This document shows positions 101 to 37,873 of a stretch of DNA of 64,000 bases, one piece after another. Made by a program: the position numbers and the translations under genes. Position 1 is the stretch's first letter; each line of letters starts with the position of its first letter. The DNA lies in NCBI RefSeq assembly GCF_019693215.1, contig NZ_CP081183.1, forward strand, positions 2,421,226-2,485,225, written 5' to 3'. The notes beneath the pieces are model-generated. The model did not search any database. It saw nothing but the letters and a program-made list of their open reading frames with translations, and had not been told where the DNA came from. This stretch comes from Salinarchaeum sp. IM2453 (GTDB taxonomy: Archaea > Halobacteriota > Halobacteria > Halobacteriales > Salinarchaeaceae).

Positions 101-1168
101 TTACGCGTCCGCGAGAGTTTCGGGGTATTCGTCGTACACGTTGATACGATCGATAGACGCATCTCCGAGTATGTCCTCAAGCGTCTCGTAGAGGAGTTCG
201 GGGCCGCCGATATCACCCTGGTAGGAGAACTCCATAGAGTTGCTGGCGACAACACGGACACGCTTGATATGCTCGCTGGCAGCAGCAAGTCGATCGACGA
301 ACGCATCGATCTCAATAGCTAGATCTCGGATGTTTCGGAGCTCTTCGGCCGGTTTAGATACGTCGTCGTCGATTGTTAGATCCTTGTCGATCCCACCGAT
401 ATGGAAACTCTCTTCAGCGTACTCAACCCGACAGTACAGTCGCGGTTCTTGTCCAACTTTGCTCCGACTAATCGTTTGGTTTTTGATCGCCCGCCAGCAG
501 AGCGTATCGAGCCGTTCAACATCTCCATGTGTCAACTTTGTATCAGCAGCTCCATGTTCGTCAACAAGACCGTGGAACCTGATGAGCCCATACTGGATCC
601 GGTGGTCATCAAGATCGAATCCACCCTGTTCTTTACCTTCTTGAGTTGCGATGACGCTTGTTAAACTGTTGTACTCCTCATTTTCATTAACTGGATGTAT
701 CGTTTTTCCAGGTGAAAACTGAACAGGACCAGTGAAGTTATCCGGCAGATAATCCTCATACTCATCAGCGTCAGTAGCCATCGTGGCCCCGAAGTAGCGG
801 ACATCAGCGCTATTCTCTAGGAACATCCCAAAGATGGCATCACGAAATTGTTCAGCTTCATCTTCGTCGTCAAGATTATAATCGTCAGGATCAATCTCCT
901 TTATCCGATCTTCGAGCAGTTGTTCACGGGTGTACTGATTCCCTTCTTCTTGCACATTACGAATGTAGACGCCGTGTCCGTCATCATCAAGCTGATCACG
1001 CAAATACCGTTTCAGGCGGACATCGGTAACAATCGCCTGCTGAGTTTGTGGGTCGATACGTGGCCGATTGGCCCCACTTAGTGGGTTGCCGTTCGGGTTC
1101 GCGTCAACGGCGTCGTACAGAAAAACTATTTCAGAGCGGTTCTGGACGGTGTCAGTAGTTTCAGTCAT
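101..1168 (-). CDS. cas7: Cas7/Csh2, type I-B Cascade backbone subunit
   Basis: Cas7 polymerises along the crRNA spacer to form the backbone of the surveillance complex. The 355-residue protein has the usual length of haloarchaeal Csh2. It begins after a short acidic leader with SEIVFLYDAVDANPNGNP, the RRM-fold first strand and the Asn/Pro-rich loop typical of the family, followed by RPRIDPQTQQAIVTDVRLKR, another Csh2 hallmark. Its ATG is 2 nt after the cas8b stop and its stop is 2 nt before cas5, so it is the third gene of a cas6-cas8b-cas7-cas5 operon read leftwards. No damage is visible, so the interference module looks intact as far as the window shows. Confidence 0.95.
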   Translation of the reverse strand: MTETTDTVQNRSEIVFLYDAVDANPNGNPLSGANRPRIDPQTQQAIVTDVRLKRYLRDQLDDDGHGVYIRNVQEEGNQYTREQLLEDRIKEIDPDDYNLDDEDEAEQFRDAIFGMFLENSADVRYFGATMATDADEYEDYLPDNFTGPVQFSPGKTIHPVNENEEYNSLTSVIATQEGKEQGGFDLDDHRIQYGLIRFHGLVDEHGAADTKLTHGDVERLDTLCWRAIKNQTISRSKVGQEPRLYCRVEYAEESFHIGGIDKDLTIDDDVSKPAEELRNIRDLAIEIDAFVDRLAAASEHIKRVRVVASNSMEFSYQGDIGGPELLYETLEDILGDASIDRINVYDEYPETLADA

Positions 1169-1170
1169 TG

Positions 1171-3282
1171 TTAGATATTCTCCTTAGTATTGGTTTTGAG
1201 TTGATCCCAGTCAGGATGATCGTTCATGCCATACGTCACGCCAAGTGCGTAGTAGAACCGGAGATCGTCAGTTCCGATTTCCCAGCTATCGGGGTCTGGC
1301 TGCAAGATCGTCTCCCGAAGCTGATCGACAACGTGTTCGAACAGCGTGATCGTACGATCTTCATTCCGGGTGTAGGTGATAGTCGTTCCAATAGCTTCTT
1401 GCGTGATCTTCTTTATTCGAGCTCCAGTGATCGATTTTACTGGGTACTGATCGATTAGTGTTGTCGACCGATCTTCGCTGTAGTTCTGGTACGCGCCAAC
1501 TTCTCCAATAAGAACGCCAAGTAAGAACGCACCACGGCGTTGGTCATTAATCGGTGCTTCCGGATCGTGAGCGAGTGCGGGGGTATCCTCGATAAAGGTT
1601 TCAAGCTTCTCGGCGGATGTATTGCCCCCGTCCGCAAGAATGTCTTCAGCTGTTTGCATACTGTATTCCTCATAGTCTGGTTCCTGTGTGATCGGTTCTT
1701 TACCGGTGTCAGCCGTCGAGAGTAAATCAAGTTCTTCATCAGCCAGCGCACACAGTTGTGCAAACTGGCTGGCAACGCGCCACGAAGGGAACTTGTCGAT
1801 GTTTTCATCATTTTCATCGGCGTCAATTCGATCGACATACTCCTTAAGCAACGTCTCGACGGCAATCGATCCACCACTCAGTACAGAAACAAGTGCCTTG
1901 ATCCGGGGGTCATCAGCACTGGCATCTGTATCGTCGCGGTCAACGAATGTCTGGCTGAAGTACCATCCCGTCGAGACAGATCTGAGCCTGTTATCATTTT
2001 TTGTCAATAAATCCCATGAGTCGTTTGTTGGCATCGGGGCACTCCAATCCGTTTGAGAGTTGTAAGCTGACGAATTTTCGATAATATTCTCGTGCCGCTT
2101 CGCAAGACTCAATGGGTATAGTAACCGGCCATTCAACGTCTCGCCGAACACATCATACCGAGACATCTGGTGTGGCATCACTGCTGACACATAAAACCGT
2201 AATTCATGTTCCCGATCGAATTTGAACTCCCTATAAGCCCGCTCGACTGGCGTCATATCCTCTTCGGTGGTTGCGGCCCTGTAGAGTAGGTCGTACAGTT
2301 GCCGTGCATGATCAGCTTGGGGTTCTCCCCGGAAATAGGGGAGGTAATAGACCTTAGCGCCGAAAGTCCGATAAGTACACGCTTCAACAAAAGGATCTGC
2401 GTTCATCACCGTCACAGCCGCGTCCTCAGAAATCGGATGCGTTCGCCAAGCTTCCTCGATATCCAAGCCTGGGAATTTCTCCCGTTGCTTACCCAAAAAG
2501 TAGTTTTGTGGATCTTCAGCTGTTCCTACAACTCTCGATATTTGTCCGGTGACAATATCTGTCGCTTCGCCGGAGGAATTGTTTGCTTTGTTTTTCGTGA
2601 CGAGCTTCGAGAGTTTCCGCTGACGCATTGCCTCCATGAAACCATCAATTTCCCCGGGCCAGCGGTATCCCTCATCAACGGCTGTTTTCACCTGCACTGT
2701 GAGCAGTGCCGTCGTAGATTCACCCCCGAGGGCGGTTTTGACTCCTTCTTCGATTTGAACCAGTAGGTCTTCATCTTTGCCTACTGTGGCTAGTCCATTA
2801 ATTACCCATCCTTCATCGTGTTCCTCGGCGACTGTCTGCACCACATCGTCAGTTGGCCACTTGGTTAACCGCTCTTTCGCATAGCGAGCGAGCTTCTCCG
2901 GGCCACTGTTTCGTCCGGCCTGGTGAGTGACGCTATGATCGATTCCACGAGCTGGTGGATACTTACAGTGTGCAGCTTTTTCAACTAGATTGTCACTGTA
3001 TCGAGTCACCCAGACTGGGCCACGCTCGTCATCAGCAAGCGATGGCTCTTCACCGCTGAGATCCACTCGAACAACAATCAGGCTGTCCTCGGTATCGACA
3101 ATATCGTCTGCCGCATCGGGGGTGAGATACGGCGCATACTTTCCACCTCCAAGTGTCCCAAGCGTGTACAACTTACCATAGAAGAATTGGATGCTTCGGA
3201 GCGTTGACACTGGAGAGTTAGGCAGCTCTGCCGACAGTTCTTCGTCGTCGTATTTCTCGCGAAACTCCTCAGGCGAAAGCAT
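1171..3282 (-). CDS. cas8b: Cas8b/Csh1, type I-B Cascade large subunit
   Basis: Cas8b is the large subunit that recognises the PAM and recruits Cas3. The 703-residue length matches haloarchaeal Cas8b (about 700-720). The position between cas6 and cas7 and the N-terminal segment with LRSIQFFYGKLYTLGTLGGG support the call. The family is poorly conserved, so the identification leans on size and operon position more than on catalytic motifs. Its start overlaps the 3' end of cas6 by 14 nt and its stop is 2 nt before cas7, indicating translational coupling. No HNH or other nuclease motif is visible. Confidence 0.9.
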   Translation of the reverse strand: MLSPEEFREKYDDEELSAELPNSPVSTLRSIQFFYGKLYTLGTLGGGKYAPYLTPDAADDIVDTEDSLIVVRVDLSGEEPSLADDERGPVWVTRYSDNLVEKAAHCKYPPARGIDHSVTHQAGRNSGPEKLARYAKERLTKWPTDDVVQTVAEEHDEGWVINGLATVGKDEDLLVQIEEGVKTALGGESTTALLTVQVKTAVDEGYRWPGEIDGFMEAMRQRKLSKLVTKNKANNSSGEATDIVTGQISRVVGTAEDPQNYFLGKQREKFPGLDIEEAWRTHPISEDAAVTVMNADPFVEACTYRTFGAKVYYLPYFRGEPQADHARQLYDLLYRAATTEEDMTPVERAYREFKFDREHELRFYVSAVMPHQMSRYDVFGETLNGRLLYPLSLAKRHENIIENSSAYNSQTDWSAPMPTNDSWDLLTKNDNRLRSVSTGWYFSQTFVDRDDTDASADDPRIKALVSVLSGGSIAVETLLKEYVDRIDADENDENIDKFPSWRVASQFAQLCALADEELDLLSTADTGKEPITQEPDYEEYSMQTAEDILADGGNTSAEKLETFIEDTPALAHDPEAPINDQRRGAFLLGVLIGEVGAYQNYSEDRSTTLIDQYPVKSITGARIKKITQEAIGTTITYTRNEDRTITLFEHVVDQLRETILQPDPDSWEIGTDDLRFYYALGVTYGMNDHPDWDQLKTNTKENI

Positions 3283-4081
3283 CTGTCCCCTCCAGATCTG
3301 ATTCGCCCGGACTAGTCTTCTCGGTGATATTGCAGAATCCGAATCCTATCGAATTCCGTTCGCCGATTCCGACATCCAGAGCAAGGTTAAGATGTCTCCG
3401 ATGTTCGTCATCACGAACGGTATAATCAAACCGCCACTTACTCGCCATCCATGTCTCTTTCATACCTGTTGTCGGTGTGACCGGCAGGGCAAATGTCTTG
3501 ATCAACTCGTAGCCATCGAACAACTGCCCGCTAACGTCAGATGGTCCGGGCAAATAGTCCGGACAGTAGAGCTCATGCTTTTTATCCAGATTTGCGTGGA
3601 TCTGATTTTTGAACGGTTCCATTGTGTGTTCGGGCCGCCAGAACTCTGCCTGATCATGATCGATGTCAAGATCGTACTCATCGAAGCGCCACGGAGGAAT
3701 CCGGACGACAATTCCCGTTCCGGTTTCAATCGTCCCGGTCGTTCCTGGCTCACCAACGTCAGGCGACAACGGAGTTATTCTCTCAACTGTGAACGGCATC
3801 TCCCCAATATTCAACTCAGGATCGTCTTTCAGATCAGCTGCGATGTGGGCGAGTAATTCTTCCTCAGGGGAGGCGACGATCAGGTTTCGCTCGTCTCCTT
3901 CCTCCATGTTTCTTGGAGGGAAGGGGTTTGAATACGTAAACGGCATCGGCTGGTTCTCGTCATGAAGACCGCCGTACTCTGATTCGTCAAGCGCATTCCA
4001 GATTCGACCCTGTAACTTATGGTGATATGCATTATCGTATGCGGCATCGTGCCGCGCCTGTAAGCGCACAAGAATCCGCAT
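3269..4081 (-). CDS. cas6: Cas6 CRISPR repeat endoribonuclease
   Basis: Cas6 cuts the pre-crRNA inside each repeat and leaves an 8-nt 5' handle. The 270-residue protein starts MRILVRLQARHDAAYDNAYH, giving the first ferredoxin-fold strand and a histidine-rich helix (His20, His21) where candidate general acid/base residues lie. Near the C-terminus GIGERNSIGFGFCNI is the glycine-rich loop that contacts RNA in RAMP proteins. It is the first gene of the cas operon. A TATA-like element lies about 45 bp upstream of its ATG. The array it would process is immediately upstream and transcribed in the same direction. Confidence 0.93.
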   Translation of the reverse strand: MRILVRLQARHDAAYDNAYHHKLQGRIWNALDESEYGGLHDENQPMPFTYSNPFPPRNMEEGDERNLIVASPEEELLAHIAADLKDDPELNIGEMPFTVERITPLSPDVGEPGTTGTIETGTGIVVRIPPWRFDEYDLDIDHDQAEFWRPEHTMEPFKNQIHANLDKKHELYCPDYLPGPSDVSGQLFDGYELIKTFALPVTPTTGMKETWMASKWRFDYTVRDDEHRRHLNLALDVGIGERNSIGFGFCNITEKTSPGESDLEGTDAFA

Positions 4082-21231: not shown

Positions 21232-22617
21232 CTAGACGAATAAGAAAAACATGGCAGCAAGTAAGATTAGTGTCACTGCCGCAACCCCTGTTTTGTTGAT
21301 GCTGAGTTTCTCAACGATGCCTTTCTCTGCAACTTCGTTCTCATATTGTTGACGAGTTTCTTCGGATCTGAAGTGCTTTTTTGCTCCAACAAAACGATCA
21401 CCAACCGAGCACTCAACACAGACGGGGTCTCCAGTCACCTCATCGTGACGCATGTGTCGCTCAGCAACGATTGTTTTACACTCTGGACAGAAAGCATAGG
21501 TCGGACTACCAAGCGACTCTCGAATTGCAGTTGCAGCTGCTGGAATGGTGTCGATTCCACCTCTCCCTTCTTCGGCAAACCTGCATTTTTCGATTGTATT
21601 ATCCATAATCCACGCATCATCGTCGGTGGCAAACCAGTCAATCGCATATGTTCGTCTGTTCATTTTGATGCTTGCGTCTACCCTGGAAACGTAGAATGGT
21701 TGCAACATCTCGACAGTAACATCATCAGCCGAGGGAACGCATTCTTTGCTATAGGTCTGATTGTTGTCTCCAGTGTATGTTACCGTTTCAGTCAACCGGT
21801 CTACTTCCTGTTGTTTGACCCACTCTCGAAACTCTTGATCCGTCCCCTCAAACCGACGCCGGTTAATATTATCCACAACATCTTCATATCGGTCTTCATT
21901 TATTTCGTGAATGTCCGAGTTTAGCTCATATTCAGAGACGATCTCATTGAGCTCATCAGGAAGTCCTTTGAGATTTGAGCTTGTCCCGTCGATAACAAAC
22001 TGATTTGTATCATTAACCGTATGGATGACACCAGCGCCTGTCTCAAATACTCGGGTCGTATTTGTCACAACGGCATTCACCGGGTGAAGTGAAATCGTGG
22101 TAAATGGCTCAGGGACATCATCAGGGGATAGGTACTTGATCCGGTCAATTGCTTTGTAAAATTCATCTAATAGATCCTGAGAATGTGGCGGCTGTAACAC
22201 ATTGTCTGTAACAATTTCTACGCGGCCATTGTAGAGGTCCATCCCAACGTTGTCTGCGACTTCTCGGAGTCGCTGCCCATCGAAAATCTCAATTCCGACC
22301 TTCTCAGCATATTTGATTGCTGGATTTGTTAACCGACCAGTTGTAGCAATCATTCCTCGCTTCGGGCCATCATAGTCGTATGTGCGAACTGCTGAGTCGA
22401 GTTTCTGTATAACTGGTCGGCCCACAGTATCCGTGTGCTTGCACTCGACCACAACTGCCGTGTTTTGTCCGTTAGATGATGAATCGATCATCGTGATGTC
22501 CCGGCCCTTGTCAGCAGTTCGACGTGATCTCTCAACATCTTCGTATCCAAGGTTTCTGAAAACATTACACATCACCTCTTCAAATTCGAACCCGCCGACT
22601 TCATCGAGTATTGGCAT
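21232..22617 (-). CDS. Mrr-type restriction endonuclease with zinc ribbon and C-terminal membrane anchor
   Basis: The 461-residue protein begins with an Mrr_cat nuclease domain. GGFEFEEVMCNVFRNLGYED is followed by DKGRDI (Asp40), VVVECKH (Glu58, Lys60) and a later Gln71, the PD-(D/E)XK site of enzymes that cut modified or foreign DNA. The middle is unassigned. Residues around 374-400 form a zinc ribbon (FCPECK and CVECS), and the last 20 residues are one hydrophobic helix. A tail-anchored nuclease is unusual. It is convergent with the subtilase gene, 84 bp apart. No methyltransferase is near. Confidence 0.85.
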   Translation of the reverse strand: MPILDEVGGFEFEEVMCNVFRNLGYEDVERSRRTADKGRDITMIDSSSNGQNTAVVVECKHTDTVGRPVIQKLDSAVRTYDYDGPKRGMIATTGRLTNPAIKYAEKVGIEIFDGQRLREVADNVGMDLYNGRVEIVTDNVLQPPHSQDLLDEFYKAIDRIKYLSPDDVPEPFTTISLHPVNAVVTNTTRVFETGAGVIHTVNDTNQFVIDGTSSNLKGLPDELNEIVSEYELNSDIHEINEDRYEDVVDNINRRRFEGTDQEFREWVKQQEVDRLTETVTYTGDNNQTYSKECVPSADDVTVEMLQPFYVSRVDASIKMNRRTYAIDWFATDDDAWIMDNTIEKCRFAEEGRGGIDTIPAAATAIRESLGSPTYAFCPECKTIVAERHMRHDEVTGDPVCVECSVGDRFVGAKKHFRSEETRQQYENEVAEKGIVEKLSINKTGVAAVTLILLAAMFFLFV

Positions 22618-32726: not shown

Positions 32727-34313
32727 ATGTCTGCTGAAGACGACACAGATTTAATTGACTCATTTCGATCTCTCTATCAAGAATATTATGATGAACAAAT
32801 AAGAACGCTTGCTGACAAGCACCCAGATCGACGATCGCTGTATGTCGACTGGCACGATATCGAAGAGTTTGACGCAGAAATTGCTGAGGGGTATGTTAAT
32901 AATCCAGATCAATATCGGCAACGCGCTGAAAAGGCTCTTCAGTTATTTGGACATTCGGTTGAGGCAGATCTTGAACAGGCGAATGTTCGACTGCAAAACC
33001 CTCCAGAGCGGACAGAAATCAACATTCGTGAGATTCAATCGGATGACAAAAGTAAGCTAATTACAACACGCGGAATCGTGCGTGAGGCAACAGAGGTCCG
33101 GACCATATTACAGCACGCTGCGTTTGAATGCCAGCGCTGTGGGACGCTAACGTACGTTGACCAACATAATAACGCACCACAGAAGCCATATGAGTGTCGT
33201 GGCTGTGAACAACAAGGGCCATTCGTGCTAGTCGAAGATGAATCCGAGTTCGTTGACTCACGACGGTTTACAATCGCCGAGGATCCCAATACACTGCCTG
33301 AGGATGCGAAAATAGGGATAATTGATGTTTCCCTTGAAGATGACATTGTAGACGAAGCAAACGCTGGGGACGTGATTCAGCTCACTGGAGTGATTCATCT
33401 TGAGCAAACGGAGAAAGATGGAATGCCGGTGTTTGAGCCATATGTCGAAGCTCACTCAGTGGACAGACTAACCGATGCATCTGAACGAGAGATGCTTTCG
33501 ATGCCGCCAAATAATATTCCAGACCCTGACATAGAAGTGTACGTCGGCACGGCAGTACAGGTCGAAGCAACGACATCCAAGGAACTACACCCCCCATTCG
33601 ATGAAGCAGCAACAAAAGTGAAGTTGGTCACACCATTTGTAGAGGCTCTTGGATGGAATATAGTGGATAATAACTATGTTCAGCTCGGGTACACGACTGA
33701 CCGGACAGACAAGAAAGCTGACTATGCGCTTTTTAGCGGCGGGAGAGAGCCACCAGATGTAATAATCGAAGTGGAGGAATTTGGAGAGCCCCTTGATTCT
33801 GGAAGTAGGCATTCAGATCGAGAATATTCAGAGCCAAAAAGACGACTCTTCGAAAAGCTCCAGGTATTTTCAGCTGAATGGGGAGTGCTTACTGATGGGT
33901 TTGAGTTTCGAGTATTCCGAAACAGGAGAGACAACATTGACGATATAGCATCATTCGGCATGAATGACCTACCAAATAGCGTTATTGAGCATTTGCAACC
34001 ATCGAATCTCCTTGACACGACGCTTGATGGAGTTGACGAGGCGCTTACAAAAAAGCCTCCGGAGAACACAGAACCGCAGGCGACAAGTGGAAGAGTCATA
34101 CAAACGGGGAAAGATGAAACCAGCAATAAAATACGAGATATTATTCGATCAAAACAAGATTCATTCCCAAATGGAGTTCCAGTCGAGAAAGCAGTTGATT
34201 ATGGGAGTTGGAAAACTGAGGCAAGTCGAAAAGAAGTTCGAGAGTATATCGAGCGACTCAAAAAAAGGGGCAGCGTTTACGAGCCAGCAGATGGCCGTCT
34301 GAGGGTGCCATAG
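32727..34313 (+). CDS. MCM N-terminal/C-terminal domains fused to HsdR_N-like nuclease domain
   Basis: The 528-residue protein combines parts not usually found together. Residues about 1-255 match the MCM N-terminal DNA-binding region: helical bundle, TTRGIVREATEVR OB-fold, and a zinc finger with Cys135, Cys138, Cys157 and Cys160. The AAA+ motor that should follow is missing. Instead residues about 295-400 look like the type I restriction HsdR N-terminal nuclease fold (KVKLVTPFVEALGW, ADYALF, DVIIEVEEF with Asp344, Glu348, Glu350; then QVFSAEWGVLTDG). The lysine of the E-x-K is a glutamate. Residues about 455-528 match the MCM C-terminal winged helix. It likely binds DNA like MCM and may cut or regulate it. 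Confidence 0.75.
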   Translation: MSAEDDTDLIDSFRSLYQEYYDEQIRTLADKHPDRRSLYVDWHDIEEFDAEIAEGYVNNPDQYRQRAEKALQLFGHSVEADLEQANVRLQNPPERTEINIREIQSDDKSKLITTRGIVREATEVRTILQHAAFECQRCGTLTYVDQHNNAPQKPYECRGCEQQGPFVLVEDESEFVDSRRFTIAEDPNTLPEDAKIGIIDVSLEDDIVDEANAGDVIQLTGVIHLEQTEKDGMPVFEPYVEAHSVDRLTDASEREMLSMPPNNIPDPDIEVYVGTAVQVEATTSKELHPPFDEAATKVKLVTPFVEALGWNIVDNNYVQLGYTTDRTDKKADYALFSGGREPPDVIIEVEEFGEPLDSGSRHSDREYSEPKRRLFEKLQVFSAEWGVLTDGFEFRVFRNRRDNIDDIASFGMNDLPNSVIEHLQPSNLLDTTLDGVDEALTKKPPENTEPQATSGRVIQTGKDETSNKIRDIIRSKQDSFPNGVPVEKAVDYGSWKTEASRKEVREYIERLKKRGSVYEPADGRLRVP

Positions 34314-35128: not shown

Positions 35129-36916
35129 ATGACAACAAACCGAGACTCATCCAAGCAAGACTACATTGCTGTTATTGACCAAGATAAGGTAACAGAAGAA
35201 GTCAAAGATATTGCAGTGAAATATGATCCACTAAACCGATCAGGACATGAAGGATTTCATGTCACCGAAGATGGGAAATTACACATTGATGATGCACTGG
35301 TCATGGCGGAACACAGACTAATCGAGAAAAAGATCCCAAATGACGCGATAAAGATTATTCCATTACCGACCGCAACAGGAGAACTTGCACATCAGTATGG
35401 AGAAAATGGGTTTCGCTTGTACAATCTTCCTGCACCAGAAGACGGAAGCGTAATTGGGTTACTCGGCCGGAATGGGATTGGAAAAAGTACTGCATTACAA
35501 ATCTTATCTGGCAACCAGATTCCGAACTTCGGGAACACAGAGCAGGCGTCCAGCTGGGAGGAAGCAATCAATACCTTTCGAGGAACCACACTGCAAAACC
35601 ATCTTGAGTCACTGCAGAATGGAGAGATCACAACAGCATATAAGCCACAGCAGATCACGAACTTCCGAAGTGAAGAATCAAGAACCGTTGCAGATGTGAT
35701 GTCTGAACCCACACTTGCTTCTGCTTCACTTCTTGAAATGCTTGACTTATCGGGGCTAGAAGACCGACAAATACGTAATCTGTCAGGAGGGGAATTACAG
35801 CGACTCGCTATCGCGGTGACACTACTCTCAGAGGCAGACTTATACATATTTGACGAGCCGTCATCATTCCTTGATATTGAGCAGCGGTTAATTGTTGGCC
35901 GAGCCATTCGGGAGTGGACTGCTTCGAACGATGCTGCAGCGATGGTCGTTGAGCACGACTTAGCGATGCTTGATTTACTGGCGGATAGTATTCATGTCGT
36001 TTATGGCGAACCTAGTGGATTTGGTGTAATCTCACAGCGACTGTCGACTCGAGAAGGAATTAACCAGTTTTTAGAAGGAAGATTACAGCAGGAGAACGTA
36101 CAGATCCGACAGCGACGTATCGAGTTTCCAGCGCCGGGGGAAAGATCAGTTCCACAGGAGGCAAAACTACTGGGATATCCAACATTGACGCACCAATATG
36201 ATTCGTTCTCATTATCAGTTAACCCCGGAGAGATCCACGCTGGGGAATCACTTGGGATCATCGGAGCAAACGCGTTAGGAAAAACAACATTTGCAAAGCT
36301 ACTTGCTGGAGCTATCGATCCACAGCAGGCAGCAATTCCTGAGGACGTTACCGTATCATACAAACCGCAGTATCTATCTGCGGATAACAAAGAAACAGTA
36401 CAGACACGACTTAGACAAGCCACAGACATTACATCTCAGCGATTTATTACTCAGATTCGTGACCCGTTTGAACTTGAAGAATTATATGATAGGCATCTTG
36501 ATACACTATCAGGCGGAGAGCTACAACGGGTTGGCATTGCGTTGTGCTTCGCTCGAGATGCAGATGTATACGTTCTCGATGAGCCGTCAGCGTTTCTCGA
36601 TGTTGACCGCCGAGCGGCATTTGCAAAGCAAATTCGACGGTTTGCACGGCGACGAAGCAAAGCTGTACTCGTTATTGACCATGATCTGCTGTTGATAAAT
36701 CACATTGCTGATCGGCTTATCGTGTTTGAAGGAACATCTGGAGAAAATGGAGTCGCTAGCTCGCCACAATCTGTTCAATCAGGGATGAATCAATTCCTTT
36801 CATCGATTGGAATTACATTTCGGCGAGATGAGCGAACAGACAGACCTCGTGTTAACAAACCAGACAGTAAACTCGATAGAGAGCAGAAACGTAACAACGA
36901 GTACTATTCTACCTAA
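35129..36916 (+). CDS. ABCE1/RLI homologue lacking all Fe-S cysteines
   Basis: ABCE1 splits ribosomes and has two ABC ATPase halves behind a double [4Fe-4S] domain. This 595-residue protein keeps the layout: the first Walker A GRNGIGKST at 113-121 and signature LSGGELQRLAIA, hinge GINQFLEGRLQQENVQIR, second Walker A GANALGKTTF near 379, second LSGGELQRVGIA, and the terminal RPRVNKPDSKLDREQK. The Fe-S region is recognisable (IAVIDQDKV, KYDPLNRSG, KKIPNDAIKIIPLP) but contains no cysteine; all eight ligands are replaced. It is thus probably a paralogue with changed or lost ribosome function. A canonical copy is presumed elsewhere, which the window cannot show. Confidence 0.88.
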   Translation: MTTNRDSSKQDYIAVIDQDKVTEEVKDIAVKYDPLNRSGHEGFHVTEDGKLHIDDALVMAEHRLIEKKIPNDAIKIIPLPTATGELAHQYGENGFRLYNLPAPEDGSVIGLLGRNGIGKSTALQILSGNQIPNFGNTEQASSWEEAINTFRGTTLQNHLESLQNGEITTAYKPQQITNFRSEESRTVADVMSEPTLASASLLEMLDLSGLEDRQIRNLSGGELQRLAIAVTLLSEADLYIFDEPSSFLDIEQRLIVGRAIREWTASNDAAAMVVEHDLAMLDLLADSIHVVYGEPSGFGVISQRLSTREGINQFLEGRLQQENVQIRQRRIEFPAPGERSVPQEAKLLGYPTLTHQYDSFSLSVNPGEIHAGESLGIIGANALGKTTFAKLLAGAIDPQQAAIPEDVTVSYKPQYLSADNKETVQTRLRQATDITSQRFITQIRDPFELEELYDRHLDTLSGGELQRVGIALCFARDADVYVLDEPSAFLDVDRRAAFAKQIRRFARRRSKAVLVIDHDLLLINHIADRLIVFEGTSGENGVASSPQSVQSGMNQFLSSIGITFRRDERTDRPRVNKPDSKLDREQKRNNEYYST

Positions 36917-37105: not shown

Positions 37106-37873
37106 CTACACAGGGAGAAATGCCGGGTCAACCTCCCGCAGTCGATTCGTATCGCGGAGATAGGAGAATAGTTCCGCGTAGTGATCCACTGATTCAGCCT
37201 GTTCCGACGCCTCTCGCAGCGTTGCCCAGTCCCCGATAAGAGCACATAGGCGCTGTGCTCGGGTCATTGCAACATTTAAACGACGTGGTCCGTCACTCGG
37301 TCTGGCAAGAAAGCCAATCTCCCCATCAGCATTGCTTCGGACAAATGAAATAAGAATAACTGTCCGTTCGCTTCCTTGGAAAGCATCAATCGTGTCTACC
37401 GTTATTGAATTGTGAGCGTCAATCTGATCGGCATCTGCCAATATGTCTTGAATATGTGTCGCTTGAGCTGCATATGGTGTGATGACGCCAATCTCTTTTG
37501 CTGGGATCCCATCATCACGAATTCTGCTGACAAGCGTAGCAACCAAGCTTGCCTCTTCAGAGTTGATAAACGAGGTTCCGGCGGGCTGCTCGGTACCACC
37601 AATGTTGTACCCAACTATTGGCTCTCGATCTGCGATAGACTGTATACTGACACCTGTCTGAAGCGATCGATCGTAAAATTCCCGATTCGGGAAGTATGAG
37701 ATATCCCGGTGCATGCGGTATTGTGTTCGCAACTGAAGTCCAATATCCTCGAATACACCACCGTCAGTATAGATGTGTTCAAATAGCGATAGTCCGGTGC
37801 TTGTTGCTGGTGGAGATTCTGTCTTGCTGAATGGCGGGAGCTGTTGATGATCACCAGCCAAGATTATCCACAT
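37106..37873 (-). pseudogene. truncated DNA2/UPF1-type superfamily 1 helicase
   Basis: Only the second RecA domain remains: ILAGDHQQLPPF (motif III), LRTQYRMH (motif IV), VITPYAAQ, TVDTIDAFQGSERTVILISFVRS split across motif V, and RRLNVAMTRAQR (motif VI). The Walker A and most of the first domain are absent. The same frame meets a TAG stop 6 bp upstream of its first methionine. A complete SF1 helicase would need at least 300 more residues, so it cannot act as a helicase. Upstream sequence (37852-38043) holds a second coding remnant in a different frame. Confidence 0.75.

Follow-up and report, generated by a model that had tools for sequence, protein, structure and literature searches.

The window, by which we mean the whole 64,000-nucleotide stretch of Salinarchaeum sp. 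IM2453 DNA that was analysed, encodes a 528-amino acid protein in which the N-terminal tier of an MCM helicase is followed by an HsdR_N-type nuclease domain, in the place of the AAA+ motor, and then by an archaeal MCM winged helix. The protein belongs to a rare haloarchaeal fusion family of about ten loci in all. Because the N-tiers of these fusions match the MCMs of their hosts while their nuclease domains group together, the sequences suggest a shared nuclease lineage whose MCM part was either derived anew from the local host's MCM or converted to it again and again.

Architecture of the protein and its nuclease site

The reading frame begins with ATG and runs uninterrupted for 528 codons. 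Its features are as follows.

32727..34313, + strand: whole gene, MCM N-tier, HsdR_N-type domain and MCM winged helix (ORF list; Pfam; MCM profile NF040949)
32754..32984, + strand: MCM_N (A-domain), residues 10-86 (Pfam PF14551, 2.7e-8, above cut-off)
33021..33398, + strand: MCM OB domain, residues 99-224 (Pfam PF17207, MCM_OB, 1.5e-24, above cut-off)
33084..33086, + strand: Glu120, the MSSB position equivalent to Pfu R124 (alignment to 4pof; PMC3970758)
33129..33206, + strand: zinc finger Cys135, 138, 157 and 160 (cysteines invariant in alignments A1 and A2)
33270..33320, + strand: Thr182, with loss of the Pfu R186 equivalent, and a degenerate b7-b8 allosteric communication loop (residue comparison; PMC3972481)
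33597..33926, + strand: HsdR_N-type PD-(D/E)XK domain, approximately residues 291-400, in the AAA+ place (weak Pfam match; relatives; family profile)
33720..33722, + strand: motif Asp332, the PD Asp (37/37 relatives; aligned to HsdR 3h1t)
33768..33776, + strand: Glu348-Val-Glu350, the E-x-K motif with Lys changed to Glu (Lys in 37/37 relatives)
33843..33857, + strand: Arg373...Lys377 at the QxxxY position (Gln in 36/37 and Tyr in 37/37 relatives)
34125..34304, + strand: archaeal MCM C-terminal winged helix, residues 467-526 (PF21120, MCM_WH_arc, 1.1e-4, below cut-off)

The initial annotation had read this layout from the sequence, and it is borne out by the profile search, in which MCM_N and MCM_OB match above the cut-off and MCM_WH_arc and HSDR_N below it. 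The four zinc-finger cysteines that it named are invariant in our alignments, the N-tier aligns with solved MCM N-domains (best E = 4.5e-28), and the core MCM closest to the A-domain is that of the host itself. The sub-threshold winged helix likewise finds its best match in the winged helix of its own host. Pfam detects no AAA+ domain in the protein and no match to the MCM P-loop (PF00493), and the replicative MCM of the genome lies elsewhere (C1:1267895), with intact Walker A and B motifs (GDPGTGKS and DELD) and an apparent intein.

Although the HSDR_N match in the window protein is weak (residues 291-336, E = 0.0019, below the cut-off), the assignment of an HsdR_N-like PD-(D/E)XK fold in the place of the motor is firm, because HSDR_N and/or HSDR_N_2 score above the cut-off in every relative scanned (P0005, P0006, P0007, P0001, P0002, L073, L074 and L131) and because a family profile of the nuclease domain, with the window row included, matches 3h1t, a type I HsdR subunit of solved structure (E = 1e-4), an alignment that pairs the motif Asp and the E-A-K motif. 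With an HSDR_N match at this position and no intact AAA+ region, the proposed fusion survives. A single-sequence AlphaFold2 prediction of the whole protein gave a mean pLDDT of 37, with the winged helix the only part modelled, and the nuclease domain predicted from a three-row alignment reached a pLDDT of 50. Foldseek searches with this low-confidence nuclease model yielded no match at E <= 0.001; the weak matches include several restriction-fold nucleases, and the 3h1t HsdR fragment has the highest query TM-score among the matches listed.

We compared the active site with those of 37 relatives, comprising 10 MCM-associated and 27 standalone HsdR_N domains. The catalytic set of D, E-x-K and QxxxY is complete in most of them, with G002 the one relative that lacks the Gln, and incomplete in the window copy, which keeps the invariant Asp332 and Glu348 and carries the substitutions K350E, Q373R and Y377K. 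The active site first proposed (Asp344, Glu348 and Glu350) is therefore right in Glu348 and in the change of lysine to glutamate at position 350, and Asp332 takes the place of Asp344 as the motif Asp. Given the replacement of Lys, Gln and Tyr, the nuclease of the window copy is probably inactive and unlikely to cut DNA, so that the idea of a cutting enzyme in the place of the motor does not suit this copy; nearly all of the relatives, with their near-complete sites, could cut DNA.

Distribution, context and origin of the fusion family

A first survey by profile search found fusions of an MCM N-tier with HsdR_N in 7 of 394 Halobacteria genomes, and family-wide and plasmid searches added a Haloglomus halophilum plasmid, a Haloplanus rubicundus plasmid and G488. 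The four-part architecture with a winged helix is present in the window, G342, G488 and Haloglomus (in the last seen by alignment, not by Pfam), and the other members end after the nuclease. The fusion was absent from the two scanned genomes of the window organism's family, viral-contig scans returned full MCMs or nothing, and a search of a phage collection gave MCM-type matches only, none spanning most of the query. G081 encodes a reciprocal chimera (L040:8733-10646, - strand, contig C4) in which HsdR_N replaces the N-tier and is followed by the MCM AAA+ domain, lid and winged helix, and in which the Walker A region reads DSGTLTT, without the lysine. Wherever MCM parts join this nuclease, the motor is either absent, as in the fusions, or dead, as in the G081 chimera.

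Several partial or divergent MCM genes were seen alongside. A 177-amino acid protein of G169 (L161:15010-15540, + strand, contig C9) carries an archaeal MCM winged helix at its end (4.4e-7 for PF21120, above the cut-off) and directly adjoins a DUF499 defence cluster, representing another motor-less, recruited MCM domain. In G219 an additional, divergent MCM gene, broken off where the contig stops (L041:15-1016, - strand, contig C4), lies about 3.4 kb from the fusion on the same strand, and on a Halorussus pelagicus plasmid an ORF of about 225 amino acids annotated as MCM (L082:3004-3681, + strand) directly precedes the full-length plasmid MCM gene.

Eight fusions come from genomes whose core MCM could be compared. 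In all eight the N-tier most resembles the MCM encoded in the same genome (identity 45.5-77.0%), a match whose resolution reaches the lineage but not the strain (for G169, other members of its genus do equally well), and of the 40,320 permuted pairings only one, the true pairing, reaches the observed similarity sum. Eight separate changes are needed on the N-tier tree, in which branches are long, and a topology with all fusions in one clade is rejected by the AU test (delta lnL 358, p = 2e-5), which rules out for the N-tier a family inherited whole as one clade. Residues private to a host MCM and its fusion are spread along the domain, disfavouring a single recent gene-conversion tract; repeated older gene conversion is possible as the source of the match. 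The winged helix is nearest to that of its own host in three of four cases, the window included (37% versus at most 28% to those of other hosts). By contrast, when the nuclease domains are compared, those of all fusions and of the G081 chimera fall on one side of a branch that separates them from the 27 standalone haloarchaeal HsdR_N domains, with a support of 100/99 (82/99 once two bacterial rows are added), a one-clade result that depends on the HsdR_N proteins sampled. By these comparisons the MCM parts were apparently derived independently in each host, and those of G488 and G169 may have come by way of same-lineage MCMs carried by viruses or plasmids.

The window gene lies 73 bp downstream of an SDR gene and ahead of a SHOCT-like gene and a divergent ABCE1 paralogue. 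This ABCE1/RLI paralogue (35129-36916, + strand) is 45% identical to a second copy in the same genome (C1:890554), and two genomes of the same family each have a single ABCE1/RLI match of about 45%. Further along (37106-37873, - strand) is an apparently truncated gene for the C-terminal half only of a superfamily 1 helicase (AAA_12, 5.4e-48). CRISPR-Cas-like, Mrr-type and toxin-antitoxin-like genes, the first and last recognised by eye, lie 11-30 kb from the chimera; type I CRISPR-Cas effector-like genes (by eye) are found at the window edge (104-3907, - strand), and an Mrr-type restriction endonuclease (Mrr_cat, 1.9e-23; 21235-22617, - strand) about 10 kb from the chimera. No HsdM/HsdS or SF2-type partner genes were recognised by eye among the window ORFs, so that we rejected a place for the gene in a type I restriction-modification system, and a place in an Hma system was rejected because DUF499 is absent from the window genome; nor is there a defence operon around the gene.

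Most of the other members are carried by plasmids or islands, in the company of genes for replication or integration, G342 and the window being the ones set among chromosomal genes. The G241 and Haloplanus members, distant ones that are near-identical to each other, sit between an HmaB-like methylase and an HmaA-like helicase of an Hma/DUF499 cluster; an adjacent DUF499 ATPase, DUF1156 methylase and helicase are present for these two only, and three other DUF499 clusters examined were without the fusion gene. As DUF499 has been reported to be a homologue of Cdc6/Orc1 (PMC7641849), the presence of the fusion in such clusters hints at a possible Orc-like/MCM-like pairing within a defence system. 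The genes beside the G081 chimera resemble, by eye, ParA and Orc1/Cdc6, and a DUF499 cluster begins about 5 kb away.

This plasmid and island setting, the ParA-like and Orc1/Cdc6-like neighbours of the G081 chimera and the frequency of MCMs on mobile elements would all suit a protein that serves the replication or maintenance of plasmids or islands, namely an MCM paralogue from a mobile element that competes with or regulates the host MCM, controlling copy number or origin use and not attacking DNA. We consider this improbable, as an intact nuclease motif in nearly all other members would be needless in a pure regulator, and the window and G342 copies lie among chromosomal genes.

Altered MCM surfaces and a possible docking role

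Core-invariant MCM residues are retained very unevenly in the fusions, at 90% in the zinc finger, 77% in the A-domain and 20% in the b7-b8 loop (permutation p = 1e-5). It is through the b7-b8 allosteric communication loop that the N-tier is coupled to the AAA+ domain, and deletions in this loop were unrecoverable in Haloferax volcanii (PMC3972481). The ssDNA-contacting residues of MCM, the MSSB, include the position of Pfu R124 (PMC3970758), and we mapped the equivalents of R124 and R186 by alignment to 4pof. The R124 equivalent is Lys in 34/34 core MCMs and acidic in 0/6 virus or plasmid MCMs, whereas six of the eight fusions carry Glu or Asp there, another has Ala and the last has Lys; the equivalent of R186 is missing from 6/8. 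In the window protein the allosteric communication loop of the MCM helicase is degenerate and the basic MSSB residues are absent. Because the fusion N-tiers are not one clade, the MSSB charge changes and the decay of the loop look convergent. The earlier argument from the loading of MCM rings at origins may not apply to proteins that have, in most of the family, lost both the MSSB residues and the AAA+-coupling loop, and it is unlikely that the fusion protein works as a ring through which DNA is threaded.

These residues bear on the possibility of a structure- or ssDNA-directed nuclease, in which the N-tier would itself encircle DNA and HsdR_N would cut the threaded or adjacent strand without the host MCM, in repair or general restriction. 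Isolated archaeal MCM N-domains form rings on DNA, the N-tier, OB domain and zinc finger are retained, E-x-K is intact in the relatives and standalone HsdR_N proteins are common in haloarchaea. The acidic residues at the MSSB lysine and the loss of the second MSSB arginine are nevertheless the opposite of what selection for ssDNA binding would give, and such an enzyme would have no obvious reason to track its host's MCM; we give this reading little credence.

The window copy could also be a decaying relic of a chimera without present function. It has lost Lys350, Gln373 and Tyr377, its N-tier has the lowest host-MCM identity of the eight (45.5%), its nuclease domain sits on a very long branch and the two scanned genomes of its family have no fusion. 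Set against this are the intact 528-codon frame, the retention of the four zinc cysteines, Asp332, Glu348 and the winged helix, and an uneven constraint (82% of core-invariant zinc-finger residues kept versus 23% in the coupling loop), and we hold a relic to be unlikely.

From the anatomy and the evolutionary pattern of these sequences we infer docking, a target and a biological role. Because the oligomerisation and interaction surfaces of the host's MCM are kept while the motor, its coupling and the ssDNA contacts are discarded, we favour, with a confidence somewhat short of even, a motor-less MCM mimic with an HsdR-type nuclease that would dock on the host MCM machinery and serve in conflict, the window copy being a decoy or regulator. 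The MCM parts would be docking modules fitted to the host's own MCM or its partners, with MCM N-tiers (via the zinc finger), GINS/Cdc45-like proteins and an Orc/Cdc6-type loader (via the winged helix) as candidate contacts; they would no longer hold ssDNA as MCM does nor couple to a motor, and would deliver the nuclease to origins or forks that depend on MCM. The most likely outcome would be the breaking or stalling of replication of invading or rival replicons, in defence or inter-replicon conflict. Having lost the active-site Lys, Gln and Tyr, the window copy, if active at all, would most likely be an MCM-binding decoy or regulator and not a cutter. A more specific version, in which a nuclease lineage re-arms itself in each host by taking the place of the motor in a copy of that host's MCM, the effector mimicking the replisome and docking to cut or block MCM-driven replication and the window copy being a nuclease-dead decoy, would amount to a new class of conflict protein and is possible but less probable.

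The docking mimic is consistent with the match to the own-genome MCM in 8/8, the rejection of one N-tier clade, the host-private residues spread along the domain, the single nuclease branch, the uneven retention, the acidic MSSB in 6/8, the absent or dead motor and the plasmid, island or Hma/DUF499 context of several members. That the MCM part matches the host favours either regulation of the host MCM or the targeting of MCM-driven replication. Other observations count against the docking mimic: virus and plasmid MCMs that retain AAA+ have a reduced coupling loop too (33%); only two near-identical copies lie in an Hma cluster, three other such clusters lacking the gene; and the window gene has neither a defence operon nor DUF499 in its genome. 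Part of the host match, which is at lineage level, could be due to an MCM donated by a plasmid or virus (G169 and G488), and the match could arise because the fusion recombines easily with the resident mcm gene and not because function requires it.

Comparison with known systems

Like the core haloarchaeal MCM (for example HVO_0220 and G000:C1:1267895), the chimera has an N-tier with a zinc finger and a C-terminal winged helix, but it has no AAA+ motor and its coupling-loop and MSSB residues are mostly lost. With HsdR (3h1t) and the standalone haloarchaeal HsdR_N proteins it shares the PD-(D/E)XK fold with D...E-x-K and QxxxY; it differs in lacking the SF2 motor and HsdM/HsdS and in being fused to MCM, and the window copy is without the Lys, Gln and Tyr. 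The likeness to Hma and other DUF499-centred BREX-related systems (PMC12839542 and PMC7641849) consists in two distant members that lie inside such clusters, whereas the window genome has no DUF499; no MCM N-tier/HsdR_N component is described in those portions of the two papers that were searched for MCM. Since the window protein thus fails as an MCM helicase, as an HsdR and as an Hma component, we file the chimera as new, with the reservation that the statement covers the open literature, in which we found no description of an MCM-HsdR_N fusion, and that subscription papers and preprints are outside its scope; within that literature the initial annotation's remark that no system with an MCM/HsdR_N/winged-helix layout is described holds good.

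If our reading is right, the family represents a mode of targeting that is, as far as we found, undescribed, with a nuclease guided to replicating DNA by a motor-less copy of the host helicase. A host-matched origin that recurs, together with the convergent reversal of charge at the ssDNA site, predicts binding to the host MCM, and the family may illuminate the MCM paralogues that lack AAA+ and the way in which Orc/Cdc6-like DUF499 defence systems engage replication.

Two further groups invite comparison. Outlier haloarchaeal MCMs that consist of the N-terminal domain only (312-315 amino acids) have been described as truncated (PMC3972481); these and the plasmid ORFs with MCM_N only (L082 and L087) resemble the chimera as motor-less N-tiers beside a normal core MCM in haloarchaea, and differ from it in that no nuclease domain has been reported or found in them. 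BrxL of BREX is a phage-defence protein related to the MCM family and containing an OB-fold (PMC12839542); it retains the MCM-family AAA+ ATPase, whereas the chimera has lost AAA+ and bears a nuclease domain.
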